Assembly (NCBI GenBank): GCA_902761735.1
Contig: CACWLL010000002.1
Span: 62,001-126,000 of the forward strand
Reading direction: 5' to 3'
DNA length: 64,000 bases
From: an uncultured bacterium
GTDB lineage: Bacteria; Cyanobacteriota; Vampirovibrionia; Gastranaerophilales; Gastranaerophilaceae
This document shows positions 44,729 through 51,014 of this stretch, piece by piece. The notes beneath the pieces are model-generated. The model searched no databases. It had not been told where the DNA came from and saw only the letters and a program-made list of their open reading frames with translations. Each line of letters starts with the position of its first letter. Positions within the stretch are counted from its first letter, which is position 1. The position numbers and the translations under genes are program-made.

Positions 44729-46822
44729 TTATACCGCATAACTGTCCCCAATGGTATCAACCGCTTCGACCTTAATATCGGTTATTAATTCGGAATAAGA
44801 AATTACAACAATTGTCGGGATATGCCGTTCAAGCAACTGATACAACGGCAGTCTTATTCTCGGAGAACACAATATTACCGGTTGCTGTCCGCAAGCCTGA
44901 TGCGCTCTCATCAATGTATTTGCAGTAGTTTCAATCAATTCCTGAACCTGAACAGGGTTGAGCAGGAACATTGTTCCTAACTCTGTTCTTTGGCAGCTGT
45001 CATCAAGAGTTTTTTCCCAATCAGGAGAAAGCGTCAGGGCATATAGAATATTATCTTCACTGACATTTGATAAACATATTTGACGTCCTAAAGCTGCTCT
45101 TAAACGTTCAGAGAGGATATCCGGCTCTTTTGAAAATCTTGCGTAATCACAAAGCCTTTCAAATACAAATATAATATCTTTTATGGAAACTTTTTCTCTG
45201 ATTAAGTTTACAAAAATCTTTCTCAAATCGCTTGTAGAAATAATTGTAGGTACAAGGTCATTAACAAGTGTAGGGTCTTGAGAACGTACAAGTTCCATTA
45301 ACTTCAATACATCTGTTTTTGTCATAACTTCGTCAACATGTTTTCTCACGCATTCTTGTAAGTGAGTAACTATAACGTCGGTTGAATCAACAGCCGTAAC
45401 AGAGCGTGCAGTTTTAGCATCCTCCGGTTTTAACCAGTAAGCTTGAGTTTGATATGTCGGGTCGATACCGATAATAGCATCTTCCGGAACTTCCTGTTTA
45501 ACGGAATCCCACTGGTCTGCAATTACCATTACACGTCCCGGATATACATAACCTGTTGCAACCGTATTACCGCGGATTGCAAGCAAATATTCGTTAGCAT
45601 CCAGTGCTGACGAGTCCATAATACGAATATTAGGTAAGATATAACCTAATTCATCGGTAACTCTTTGACGTAAAGCTGCGATTTTTGCTAGCAGTTGTCC
45701 TTCCTGATCAGGGTCTGCAATTACAAGCAGATTAGAACCAACTTGTAAACTTAATACATCAACACCAAGACGTTCATACATACGATTCGGATTAACAAGG
45801 TCTTGCATGTTTTGTCGTACATTTTCCAATTGTCCCAATTGTGATTGAACATCCGCATTAATCAATACGGAGAATCCGGCAACAGCTAAACCTATAGAAA
45901 ATAACGTGAACGGAAACCAAGGCAATCCGGTTATAGGGCCTGTTATTGCGAGCAGTGCCAAAAACCCTGCCGCGAAGAATAACGCATATGGTTTTGTCAT
46001 AATCTGCCCTGTAACATCAGCACCTAATGAGGCACTTTGAGCCGAAGAACGTGTCATAAATATACCGGCTGCAATAGACATCAATAAAGACGGAACTTGA
46101 GATGCCAAACCGTCACCGATAGTTAATACGGTATATTTTGAAACCGCATCCTCGATTTGCATTTGATTCATTAAACACCCGACACACAAGCCGCCGATAA
46201 TGTTAATCAACACAATAATGATACCCGCAATAGTATCCCCTTTTACGAACTTCATTGCACCATCCATACTACCAAATAAGCTTGATTCTCTGGATAAATC
46301 TTCACGCTGCTTTGTTGCTTCTTCCGGCGATATCAAACCTGCATTAAAATTGGCGTCAATAGTCATCTGTTTTCCGGGCATAGCATCTAAGGCGAAACGG
46401 GCGGAAACTTCGGCAATACGTTCGGCACCTTTTGTGATAACCATAAATTGTACAACAGTGATAATCAGGAATATTACACCACCTACAACCATATTTCCGC
46501 CGGTGACGAATGTTCCGAAAGCATGAATTACTTCTCCGGCTTCTCCTCTTGCAAGAATTAATCTTGTAGATGCAATTGATAAAACAAGACGAAACATTGT
46601 TCCAAGAAGAATAATTGACGGAAATGACGAAAGTTCAAGCGGTTTTTGAACATACAGCCCGAACATTAAAAGTACGATACCTAAAGTAATATTCAAACAT
46701 ATAGAAAAATTAATAACCCAGTTAGGCATTTCAACAAGCAAAATCAATAACAGTGTCAATACAAACACTGCTAAAAATAATTCACTTACCGGATTGTTAG
46801 TTCCGCCGCCTCCCTGTGCCAT
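44729..46822 (-). CDS. flhA: flagellar-type export gate protein FlhA
   Basis: 697 aa, the FHIPEP family. About eight N-terminal membrane segments (up to residue 330; [38 protein letters not shown]) are followed by the cytoplasmic ring domain. Conserved segments: [30 protein letters not shown], and [13 protein letters not shown]. It forms the nonameric export gate of flagella and injectisomes. FlhA and SctV are hard to tell apart alone; the neighbouring full-length FliF and FliE make the flagellar branch more likely. It starts one base after the FliH stop. Confidence 0.92.
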
Positions 46823-46823
46823 T

Positions 46824-47693
46824 TTATAATTCCCTTAATGCTTTTGTAACTACCTCTAAACGAGATTCTATAGTCGCATCAACTATACCGTTTGTTGTTG
46901 TTACAAGACATCCGCCTTCACTAACGGTTTCGTCTGCCAAGACAACAACTTTTGTATCAATACCTGCCATTTCAATCAGTTCAGGAATATGCTGTTTTAA
47001 CTCATTTGATTCGGCAGGATTAACACGTAAAGTCACTTTAGCTTCTTCCTTAGATAACGTTTTTAACACGCCTACTACGGTATTAAAAAGTACCTGAGAA
47101 TCTTGTTCTATTTCTTTTTTAATAATTTTTTCCGCAATTTCAACACTTATACCGAGAATATTTGGAGCAATTTGTTCGTATACAGCCTGCGGAGTGCCAA
47201 TAAATGCATTTAAAGATTCTTTAAGTTGTTGAATGTCGGCATTTGCTTGTTCCAATCCGGCTTCATAACCCTCTTGCAGGGCAGATTCTCTAATGGCAAC
47301 AGCTTCTTCTCTTGCTCGAGATACAAGATTTCTGTCATCTACACGACGAAAACCTCTTCTTCTATCTCCACGGCGACGCTCTTGCCTTTGACTAAAATCA
47401 ATGTTATCCAAGTCGAATAAATTTATATCTTCATCGGTGATATTTTGAGGAGATGCCTGTGCAGAATCGGACTGAGCAGGTTGAGCAGCTTGAGGCTGTT
47501 GTGAAGAAATGTTTTCAACATTTTCGGAATAATCCTGATTTTGTTCATAATCATTATTTTGCTGAAAATTTTCTGCAGTCGTTGTTTCGTCATAAGACAC
47601 AACTTCGTCCTGCTGAACAGATTCCGCATTCTGTTCGGCAAGCTGATTTTCTGCTCCCGAAATCTTATTAAGTGTTTTTTTGCGTATAATCAT
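46824..47693 (-). CDS. fliH: FliH-like export ATPase regulator
   Basis: 289 aa. The N-terminal 100 residues are low-complexity and Gln/Asn/Ser-rich. Then comes a charged coiled coil (VSRAREEAVAIRESALQEGYEAGLEQA) and the conserved FliH/SctL C-terminal fold ending GGCLVTTTNGIVDATIESRL. FliH dimers bind the export ATPase FliI and dock it to the C-ring. No fliI is visible in this window, so it must lie elsewhere or be absent. The gene sits between the FliG-like gene and flhA with tight spacing. Confidence 0.85.
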   Translation of the reverse strand: MIIRKKTLNKISGAENQLAEQNAESVQQDEVVSYDETTTAENFQQNNDYEQNQDYSENVENISSQQPQAAQPAQSDSAQASPQNITDEDINLFDLDNIDFSQRQERRRGDRRRGFRRVDDRNLVSRAREEAVAIRESALQEGYEAGLEQANADIQQLKESLNAFIGTPQAVYEQIAPNILGISVEIAEKIIKKEIEQDSQVLFNTVVGVLKTLSKEEAKVTLRVNPAESNELKQHIPELIEMAGIDTKVVVLADETVSEGGCLVTTTNGIVDATIESRLEVVTKALREL

Positions 47694-47705
47694 GATTTGA
47701 TAATA

Positions 47706-48776
47706 TTATACAATACTTTCAAGGTATCGGGCAATAATGTTAGCAATTCTAGGTGAAATTTTATAATACTCACCGTCAACAGCGTTAAATACAAACTGTC
47801 TGACTTTATTACGTTCAAGCTGTAACTTTGCTTCCATACGTTTTTTACCTATCGTTGCAACAACATCTTGGATACGTTTCATAACTTGTTTTTTGTTAAC
47901 TTCTGTTGCTTCCGGAAGAGTCTTTGTTATATCTTCAATAATTCTCATGGTAGCAGCAGGGTCAACGTGTCGTTCAAGTCCGTCGACATGCATATATTTA
48001 ATAACGGTTCCGGCATCGTCCTGCTCAAAACATTCTAATATTTCTTGAACTTGTTCTTCATCTTCTATTCTTTTTAACAACATTGCAACCGTAACAAGTT
48101 TAAGCAGTTTAGGCGGCTCGTACCTGATACTGGTTCTGTTTGGAATGTTTTTCATATCATCCTGAGTAACAGCGGGAGCCGTTTCTGATTGCGTTGCAGG
48201 TACTTGAGGGTTTTGGTTTAACGGTGCAGGCTGATTTGCTGCTTGTTGTTGCTCTACAGCTGCTTCTCCGCTTTCTTCCATTTGCTGCATTACAGCATCA
48301 ATATTTGATTGTGAAGCAGCCTTTTCCATCAATCCATCGTCAATAAAACCTTTGTCCTTCAATTCTGAAATGCTGTCTAAGTATGTTTTTTTAACGTGAT
48401 GTTCAATTAATTGTAATATTTGATCTTGAGGCAATCCTTGTTTAAAAGTTTGTTTTGCAATTTCAAAAATTGTAAACGCAATCTTTTGCATAATAGGGTC
48501 CCAAAACTGTTGAGGAATTCCCGAACGAATAAGGTCAACAGATTTATGAAACGCCCATTCGGCAATAATCTGAGTTATCATTGTCGCCTGATCAACATTA
48601 AATCCGAGGTTATCCTGATCCTGATACAGTGCTTCACCGGCAAGGGTTGAAAAATTAAGTAACGTATTGGTTACATAATCCTTGTCATTTTGGCTAAATT
48701 CGGCAGGTACAAGCTCTGACGCTTGTGCTGCGAGATTTTCTGCAAATCCTTTATAATCAAACCCTTTTATTGCCAT
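47706..48776 (-). CDS. unusual FliG-position protein of the export operon
   Basis: 356 aa in the slot where fliG normally sits (between fliF and fliH). Residues 1-170 are helical (FAENLAAQASELVPAEF, FWDPIMQKIAFTIFEIAKQ). A Gln/Pro/Ala linker follows at about 170-215. The C-terminal part (KLLKLVTVAMLLKRIEDEEQ, VQEILECFEQDDAGTVIKYM) resembles the FliG N-domain pattern 'AxLLxxLxEExAxxVLxxL'. I see no FliG C-terminal torque domain with its charged motor residues. If it binds FliF, it may be a non-torque substitute, so the apparatus may not rotate. This is inference; an HMM comparison with FliG is needed. Confidence 0.5.
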   Translation of the reverse strand: MAIKGFDYKGFAENLAAQASELVPAEFSQNDKDYVTNTLLNFSTLAGEALYQDQDNLGFNVDQATMITQIIAEWAFHKSVDLIRSGIPQQFWDPIMQKIAFTIFEIAKQTFKQGLPQDQILQLIEHHVKKTYLDSISELKDKGFIDDGLMEKAASQSNIDAVMQQMEESGEAAVEQQQAANQPAPLNQNPQVPATQSETAPAVTQDDMKNIPNRTSIRYEPPKLLKLVTVAMLLKRIEDEEQVQEILECFEQDDAGTVIKYMHVDGLERHVDPAATMRIIEDITKTLPEATEVNKKQVMKRIQDVVATIGKKRMEAKLQLERNKVRQFVFNAVDGEYYKISPRIANIIARYLESIV

Positions 48777-48796: not shown

Positions 48797-48958
48797 TTAT
48801 TTATCTTCAACCCAACTTTTTACTTCTATTTCGAACGGTGCAGGTTCTTCTTTTTGTTTTGGTATTTTGGTTATTGTTTCTTTTTGTTTCATTTTTGTCT
48901 GTTTAACTTTTCTGCCGGTAAGTTTGCCAAAAGTTTTATTATCAAAATTGTTTGTCAT
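48797..48958 (-). CDS. 53-aa protein with FliF-like C-terminal motif
   Basis: ATG 48958 has an AGGAC site 5 nt upstream and lies 13 bp after the fliF stop. The product begins MTNNFDNKTFGKLTGRK, has a Lys/Gln-rich middle, and ends FEIEVKSWVEDK. The last residues nearly repeat the very end of FliF (GIKSWIENNG): K-S-W-(V/I)-E-(D/N). In known flagella the FliF C-terminus (VIRQW in Salmonella) binds FliG. The short protein could compete for or bridge the same site. It has no membrane segment. No homologue is known to me. Confidence 0.7.
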   Translation of the reverse strand: MTNNFDNKTFGKLTGRKVKQTKMKQKETITKIPKQKEEPAPFEIEVKSWVEDK

Positions 48959-48971
48959 TATTTATGTCCTA

Positions 48972-50642
48972 TTAACCGTTATTTTCAATCCAGCTCTTGA
49001 TGCCTTCACCCGTTAAATCGCCGTCAGTGTGCGCAATATTGGATGACAGATTCTGTAAGGCGGCGAGCATATCTGCTTCGCTCTTTTCGCCCAAATATTC
49101 ACGTTGTTGCTGTTCCAACAAGCCTTGGGCCAATTCGGATTGTCTGTCTGCCAGCTGAGCTGCACGAACATTAACATCACTAAGTTCTCTATCCTGTTCA
49201 GCTTCTTTCTGGCGTAAACGTTCAACTTCAATTGCATTTTCTTCCTGAATTTGACGAACTCTTCCCGATACTGCTCTGAATACTATAAACAACCCGATAG
49301 CACTGAGAGCAACAGCTAACCACCAAGGATTGCCGCTTTCATCAGGCTTTGGCAGGTTTGCAGGTCTGCCGGAAGCCAAGTATGGATCAACCGTATCAGA
49401 GAACGCTATTGATACGTTATCTGCCGTAACTTTTGGTCCTGCTGCACTTGCAACAAGTTCTTTTAATTCGGTCAAAGTTGTATCCGGCGGAAGTGCGGAA
49501 CGTTCTAATGTTACCGCTACGGTTACTTCTTCAATTGTTCCCGGTTTTAAATACTCGTTTAGTTGTGTTCTGCTGACGCCGTATTGAGTTTCTGTGGCAG
49601 AACGGGAATAACTTCTGTTTTGACTTGAATTATTTGATGAATTACCCATTCCGTTAGGAAGATATACGCTGACAGCATTTGTTCCTGCACTGTTATCTTG
49701 TGTTTGATCCCCTAAACCTTCCGTAAAGGTCTGTTCGTTTATAGATGTTTTTGTATCAGGATCGTACATTGTACTGAATTTTTCAGCAGGATTATCTCTT
49801 AGAAATGTACTTACTGTTGCAACATAATTACCTTTGCCGATTAGTCTGTCTAACTGAAGCATAACTTTTTGTTGCATATATTTATCATTTTCTTCAATTC
49901 TTGCAAGCATCTCATCAGAAGCATTCATTATACTGTGATAAACATTACCGTTAGTGTCGGTTATTGAAATATTTTCAGCTTCTAAGCCAGAAACACTGCC
50001 TAAAAGTAAATTTGAAATCGCTTTAACTTTTAACGGTTCAAGTTTTTCTCCCGGCGGAATTACTATTTGAACCGTGGCAGTTATAGGTTTTTGTTGAGAT
50101 GTAAACATAGTTTGTTCCGGTATTGAAATAAATACCGAAGCGTTTTCTATAGGTTTTATCTTTCTTATTAATCTTGATAATTCACCGTTAACAGCTCGGG
50201 TTAAACGAATTTTTTTATCTTCTTTTGTGGAAGTAAAATCACCTTTATCAAAAATTTCCAATCCGACATTTTGATCCATCAAACCGCTTTGAACAATTTG
50301 AATTAAGGCTTCATCACGTTGGGCTGTTGTACATTTTTTCATACCCGTAGTACAGTCCCCTTTTTTAAGATACAATCTGGATTTTGTACCGTCTAAGGAA
50401 CGAGATACCGCAATGTTATATCTTGCAAGTAATGCTTGTATTTCAATGGCCTTACCCATATTGTCGGTTGTTAATAAATCAACATCCTCTTTTATTGCTT
50501 CTTCCGAAACAGTTTTGCCATTCTTGTCGCTTCCGTTTGAGTGTACGACACCAATGGTTATGAACAATGCAAGAAGCAGTACTACGCCACCGATTATCCC
50601 ATATAATAAAGGTTTGTTTTCAAGAAATTTTTCAAAGTCCAT
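48972..50642 (-). CDS. fliF: flagellar M-ring protein FliF
   Basis: 556 aa, full FliF length (SctJ injectisome homologues are about 250 aa). An N-terminal membrane span (LLYGIIGGVVLLLALFITIG) precedes the YscJ/FliF ring domains (ENASVFISIPEQTMFTSQQK, TATVQIVIPPGEKL). The large periplasmic part contains GNYVATVSTFLRDNPAEKFS, and a second span (WWLAVALSAIGLFIVFRAV) is near 445-465. The C-terminal tail ends GIKSWIENNG, equivalent to the FliG-binding helix. An unusual pair of Cys sits near 96-103 (GDCTTGMKKCTT). Confidence 0.92.
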   Translation of the reverse strand: MDFEKFLENKPLLYGIIGGVVLLLALFITIGVVHSNGSDKNGKTVSEEAIKEDVDLLTTDNMGKAIEIQALLARYNIAVSRSLDGTKSRLYLKKGDCTTGMKKCTTAQRDEALIQIVQSGLMDQNVGLEIFDKGDFTSTKEDKKIRLTRAVNGELSRLIRKIKPIENASVFISIPEQTMFTSQQKPITATVQIVIPPGEKLEPLKVKAISNLLLGSVSGLEAENISITDTNGNVYHSIMNASDEMLARIEENDKYMQQKVMLQLDRLIGKGNYVATVSTFLRDNPAEKFSTMYDPDTKTSINEQTFTEGLGDQTQDNSAGTNAVSVYLPNGMGNSSNNSSQNRSYSRSATETQYGVSRTQLNEYLKPGTIEEVTVAVTLERSALPPDTTLTELKELVASAAGPKVTADNVSIAFSDTVDPYLASGRPANLPKPDESGNPWWLAVALSAIGLFIVFRAVSGRVRQIQEENAIEVERLRQKEAEQDRELSDVNVRAAQLADRQSELAQGLLEQQQREYLGEKSEADMLAALQNLSSNIAHTDGDLTGEGIKSWIENNG

Positions 50643-50675: not shown

Positions 50676-51014
50676 CTATACTTGAATTTGCATAATTTTA
50701 TCGTACGCTTGAATAACCTTACCTACCGCTGTTGTTGCGACATTAACACTGATTTCGGATTTTGACATTGCAATCATAACGTCGTGAATATCAATGTTTT
50801 TGTTACCCGACATAACATCTTTTAACAAATCATCAGGTGCACTTACTTCTTTGTTGAAATTTTCAACCATTCCTGCAAACACCGTCTGAAAATTTGCTTT
50901 TTTGGTAGTGTCCATACTATCCAAACGTGCGGAAGGTATACCGCCAAATCCGGGTGCAATCTTTGAGCCTTGGATTCTGCTTTGTAAATCATATTTTGGA
51001 ATATAACTTGACAT
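50676..51014 (-). CDS. fliE: flagellar hook-basal body protein FliE
   Basis: 112 aa. The C-terminal signature is VMIAMSKSEISVNVATTAVG then KVIQAYDKIMQIQV, which is FliE. The N-terminus is longer and more divergent than usual (MSSYIPKYDLQSRIQGSK). FliE joins the M-ring to the rod. It is the first gene of the operon, with a GAGGGAGGG ribosome site, 34 bp before fliF. The divergent region to dnaG is about 220 bp; I found only weak -10/-35 candidates there and no sigma-28 or sigma-54 motif. Confidence 0.9.
   Translation of the reverse strand: MSSYIPKYDLQSRIQGSKIAPGFGGIPSARLDSMDTTKKANFQTVFAGMVENFNKEVSAPDDLLKDVMSGNKNIDIHDVMIAMSKSEISVNVATTAVGKVIQAYDKIMQIQV

Follow-up and report, generated by a model that had tools for sequence, protein, structure and literature searches.

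A FliF-tail mimic encoded beside a candidate FliG-like adaptor in a FliG-less flagellum-type secretion locus of Gastranaerophilales

Introduction

In flagella, FliF is joined to FliG through a split interface (5TDY, 5WUJ), at which the FliF tail and the N-terminal domain of FliG (FliG_N) fold together and take on a shape like that of the FliG middle domain, FliG_M (PMC6079021). The loci compared here belong to Candidatus Gastranaerophilales, the non-photosynthetic gut relatives of cyanobacteria. Passages of Soo et al. (2014; PMC4040986) describe most genomes of this order as keeping only a subset of flagellar genes, and treat that subset as non-functional flagella.

Here we describe a locus of the same order within a 64,000-nucleotide stretch of DNA, referred to below as the window. 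As in the flagellar joint, the FliF motif lies in a helix at the extreme C-terminus and has a conserved aromatic core; its modeled partner is a helical domain with some likeness to FliG, and in the model the composite may resemble FliG_M. Unlike the flagellar case, a free protein of 53 aa also carries the motif, and the probable partner is a protein of 356 aa, hereafter the adaptor, which has an unrelated N-terminal bundle and no FliG_C match. The adaptor gene resembles fliG in following fliF and preceding fliH, and the FliG-like domain of its product appears, in a model, to take the FliF tail; it differs from FliG in that this domain is C-terminal rather than N-terminal. Several relatives have a true FliG too, encoded in a separate fliF-fliG-fliH-fliI locus. 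Compared with the flagellar remnants portrayed in those passages of Soo et al., what we find is a locus that is near-universal, has an adaptor of its own and stands apart from the fliG locus. A literature search, whose scope took in few subscription papers, found no report of the 356-aa adaptor or of a FliF-tail mimic.

Results

A second, FliG-less secretion system

The operon runs fliE-fliF-53aa-356aa-fliH-flhA, the small gene lying between fliF and the adaptor gene (Table 1). FliP is present in the genome, and one cluster on another contig encodes FliO, FliQ, FliR and a 415-aa protein that contains two SpoA (FliMN_C) domains, so that, of the export core of a type III secretion system, FlhA, FliP, FliQ, FliR, FliH and a SpoA-domain ring protein are present. 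The 415-aa protein (L189 10995-12242, + strand) sits beside fliO-fliP-fliQ-fliR and has a weak NCBIfam match to SctQ and FliN. FliE and FliP reach the flagellar equivalog cut-offs of NCBIfam; FliF, FlhA, FliH, the SpoA protein and FliR score under theirs. Neither FliG_C nor flagellin (Flagellin_N) was found in this genome, which is an estimated 99.98% complete, and we therefore regard the machine as a flagellum-type secretion apparatus, an incomplete and non-swimming relative of the flagellum. The preliminary description drew on the FliG-binding helix of FliF in flagella; the setting here is not a complete flagellum.

FliG_C was found in 72 of the 192 genomes of the order. The eight FliG_C loci that were read place fliG in the order fliF-fliG-fliH-fliI, next to a FliF with a different tail, of the LLSYVKD type, and several of the genomes concerned carry the 356-aa locus too. 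Since the fliG loci are separate in genomes that also have the 356-aa locus, the FliF of the window belongs to a second, FliG-less system, whose FliF-adaptor-FliH-FlhA locus is near-universal in Gastranaerophilales.

Table 1. Features of the locus, in window coordinates
Feature	Position	Strand	Basis
53-aa ORF, FliF-tail mimic	48797..48958	-	ORF call; orthologue; selection pattern
C-terminal motif FEIEVKSWVEDK, residues 42-53 of the 53-aa protein	48800..48835	-	unchanged between the two species; resembles the FliF tail
N-terminal segment MTNNF.N..FGKLTGRK, residues 1-17 of the 53-aa protein	48908..48958	-	conserved
Shine-Dalgarno-like AGGA, 8 nt 5' of the ATG of the 53-aa ORF	48967..48970	-	sequence; AGGA also in the second species
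FliF of the second, FliG-less system	48972..50642	-	Pfam YscJ_FliF 4e-33, YscJ_FliF_C 2e-17; under the NCBIfam flagellar FliF cut-off
FliF tail helix GDLTGEGIKSWIENNG	48975..49022	-	KSWIE near-invariant in relatives; helix in joined model
356-aa adaptor in place of FliG	47706..48776	-	no Pfam or NCBIfam family; 188/192 order genomes
Adaptor C-terminal domain, residues 223-356, FliG-like, probable FliF-tail receptor	47709..48110	-	FliG_N E 0.0015, hhalign, joined-model superposition
Adaptor N-terminal helical bundle, residues 1-165	48282..48776	-	AlphaFold2 model; N-domain-only matches in other proteins of relatives
FliH	46824..47693	-	Pfam FliH 3e-24
FlhA	44729..46822	-	Pfam FHIPEP 7e-216
FliE	50676..51014	-	Pfam FliE 4e-16

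A small gene with a FliF-like end

The 53-aa protein reads MTNNFDNKTFGKLTGRKVKQTKMKQKETITKIPKQKEEPAPFEIEVKSWVEDK, and the FliF encoded beside it ends in GEGIKSWIENNG. The likeness on which the preliminary description rested, VKSWVEDK in the small protein against IKSWIENNG in FliF, holds up. A Pfam search of the small protein returned no family, and the ring-building YscJ/FliF domains are absent from it. Aligned end to end, its last 16 residues and the last 25 of FliF give a score of 32, where shuffles average 14.2 (sd 3.3) and reach 32 in 11 of 60,000 cases; among 15,688 ORF tails from the window and 80 related loci, nearly all that score this high are FliF tails or the small gene. An equal-sized local match anywhere in the whole of FliF is expected by chance, 501 of 1000 shuffles reaching it, so the evidence lies in the register, at the extreme C-terminus of both proteins. 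Within the genome, KSW[IV]E tails occur in FliF and the small gene only, three further matches to the pattern sitting inside unrelated frames, and the KSWIE of the FliF tail is near-invariant across the 80 related loci. By sequence, then, the extreme end of the small protein is a genuine copy of the C-terminal signature of FliF.

The gene is found in the window genome and in one sister species (UBA2855), where the orthologue (L058/L106) has equal length and the same place, is 68% identical and shows zero indels. Elsewhere it is missing: 11 of 13 congeneric genomes lack it, a search of the spacers of 80 related loci added none beyond the sister species, and no convincing homologue turned up in the 192 genomes of the order, where matches at E 0.02 to 3 were unrelated frames. 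Conservation in relatives, which had been proposed as a check, thus gives a divided answer, with the tail kept in both species that have the gene and the gene itself confined to them. It follows that the small gene is not a conserved, general part of the apparatus, which can do without it.

The two species are well diverged, with dS 1.06 for FliF and 0.75 for the adaptor, and the substitutions are unevenly spread along the small protein. Residues 38-53 have dN 0.026 against dS 0.49, and residues 1-17, of which 14 are identical in both species, have dN 0.13 against dS 0.61, whereas the middle (residues 18-37, dN 0.47 against dS 0.32) has drifted. The last 12 residues are identical despite 33 substitutions in the gene. 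When the same 33 changes were simulated, these residues stayed unchanged in 3 of 4,482 stop-free outcomes, and the observed identity was matched in 33 of them. The coding status of the ORF is backed by its kept length, place and frame, the lack of indels and the unchanged 12-residue tail. Judged from these sequence comparisons, it is a real, recent gene, whose product is constrained at both ends and not in the middle.

The adaptor as a plausible receptor of the FliF tail

Family alignment and an AlphaFold2 model of the adaptor alone (pLDDT 77, pTM 0.47) divide the protein into a helical bundle at the N-terminus, a disordered linker and a further helical domain at the C-terminus. Sequence likeness of this last domain to FliG is weak and distant: family members match FliG_N (E 0.0015 at best, with 3 of 28 members), FliG_M (0.005) and MgtE_N (0.011), and of the parts of FliG it is FliG_N that hhalign ranks first, with a pairwise E of 0.0006 and a probability of only 29%. 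The N-terminal domain matches none of the FliG parts by hhalign.

In the window, as in many relatives, fliF and the adaptor gene share a reading frame, so that their natural read-through, with stops read as Ser, could be used for a chain joined in cis, made up of 39 residues from the FliF tail, a 66-residue linker and the 356 residues of the adaptor. The resulting AlphaFold2 model (pLDDT 71, pTM 0.40, no interface error or score) folds the tail into two helices with pLDDT 74-83, the read-through linker standing at 33-39. Tail and adaptor domain together (model 13-397) superpose on FliG 104-189, the middle domain, over 85 residues of 8wo5 with Z 8.7 and rmsd 2.8 A, Z below 13 being, by the comparison tool's own caution, possibly common for helical folds. 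Further FliG entries matched are 9n49 (Z 8.1), 8umx (7.4), 4qrm (6.7) and 3hjl (6.6), with 8vib also in the list; the adaptor model alone has one poor FliG row, 3hjl, at Z 5.1 and rmsd 11.6. Foldseek gave no significant match with either model, nor did sequence searches of solved structures with the adaptor family and FliF tails. The joined model would thus show the arrangement of tail and FliG_N published in PMC6079021, with a protein other than FliG. That the 356-aa neighbor is the partner of the FliF tail is made plausible by the weak FliG_N likeness and by this superposition.

Elsewhere in these genomes the adaptor N-terminal domain turns up again, by itself or as part of a fusion, in proteins roughly 230, 315 and 600 aa long (for example G031:C2:665213-665722 and G049:C3:12638-13249), and is possibly a shared docking module. 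Genome G007 has an additional 187-aa copy of it in the slot that the small gene takes in the window, with fliF on one side and the adaptor gene on the other (L091 2016-2579, - strand); this is an independent local duplication. Genome G192 has a second adaptor copy (L095 85-1992, - strand), 635 aa long, in which the N-terminal domain is in frame with an FlhA-like C-terminal end.

Discussion

What might a free copy of the FliF tail do? The gene product would be small and soluble, conserved at either end and charged and free in between, and its C-terminal end, EIEVKSWVEDK, presumably helical, would copy the tail helix of the neighboring FliF. That tail most likely plugs, on the joined model, into the FliG-like C-terminal domain of the adaptor and thereby would complete a split armadillo-type domain, as it does with FliG_N in flagella. 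Since the composite model resembles FliG, the adaptor is a plausible partner and the small protein, encoded directly before it and sharing the tail, would most likely fill the same groove; we infer this binding from sequence. There it could hold or cap the adaptor until it is driven out by a FliF ring, or be a rival of FliF for adaptor molecules, and any effect on assembly or regulation would follow from such binding. We put the probability that it is a placeholder or competitor in the groove meant for the FliF tail at about 0.5. Counting against this reading, the modeled FliF tail has two helices, and the small protein shares the last only, with a Pro-rich stretch before it; nor does the reading account for the conserved N-terminal segment, which may serve to bind another partner.

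That segment is central to a different proposal, in which the small protein is a bivalent tether, its C-terminal end docking the adaptor and its N-terminal end recruiting a second protein, so that a client or part is added to the machine instead of FliF being blocked. Conserved ends with a free linker between them make up the architecture usual for linker proteins with two motifs, which keeps the tether in contention as an unlikely but serious option; a partner for the N-terminal end was sought and none was found. Likeness of this end to the N-termini of the adaptor (reached by 140 of 2000 shuffles) and of FliH (86 of 2000) is marginal, and that to the adaptor is missing in the second species; homology to either was not retained.

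The same patchy likeness bears on where the gene came from, and on whether it functions at all. The junctions fliF-small and small-adaptor align better with each other than shuffles do, 3 of 3000 reaching the score, and the start of the small gene in the window resembles the adaptor starts of relatives (mean 13.4, against 5.1, sd 2.8, for other genes), as expected if a tandem copy of the fliF end, the spacer and the adaptor start had left a functionless junction ORF. In the second species, however, the start likeness is missing (mean 6.7), and the tail DNA of fliF and the small gene is no more alike than shuffles are (899 of 3000). For these two reasons tandem duplication of the junction is suggestive as the origin of the gene, and not established. 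Equal length, the lack of indels and an unchanged tail over deep divergence point to function, which makes a mere relic improbable. A real small protein could also have come to its FliF-like tail by convergence while doing another job, for instance as a secreted or chaperone-like part, given that the shared core is about five residues (KSW[IV]E) and that the rest of the protein belongs to no known family. The position of the gene between fliF and the likely receptor of the tail, the extreme C-terminal register and the full conservation of the tail speak against convergence, which we hold to be quite improbable.

The placeholder or competitor reading is thus the one we favor for the small protein. 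The wider picture, of a recently born, free FliF-tail mimic regulating a FliG-less apparatus through the adaptor groove, together with a FliG-like adaptor that is widespread and preserves the split-domain joint of FliF and FliG without FliG, is offered tentatively, at clearly less than even odds. If it is true, an assembly regulator would have been born when a short docking tail was copied next to the gene it came from, and the adaptor would be a testable counterpart of FliG in a common gut lineage, one in which what is left of the flagellar genes has until now been taken for broken flagella.
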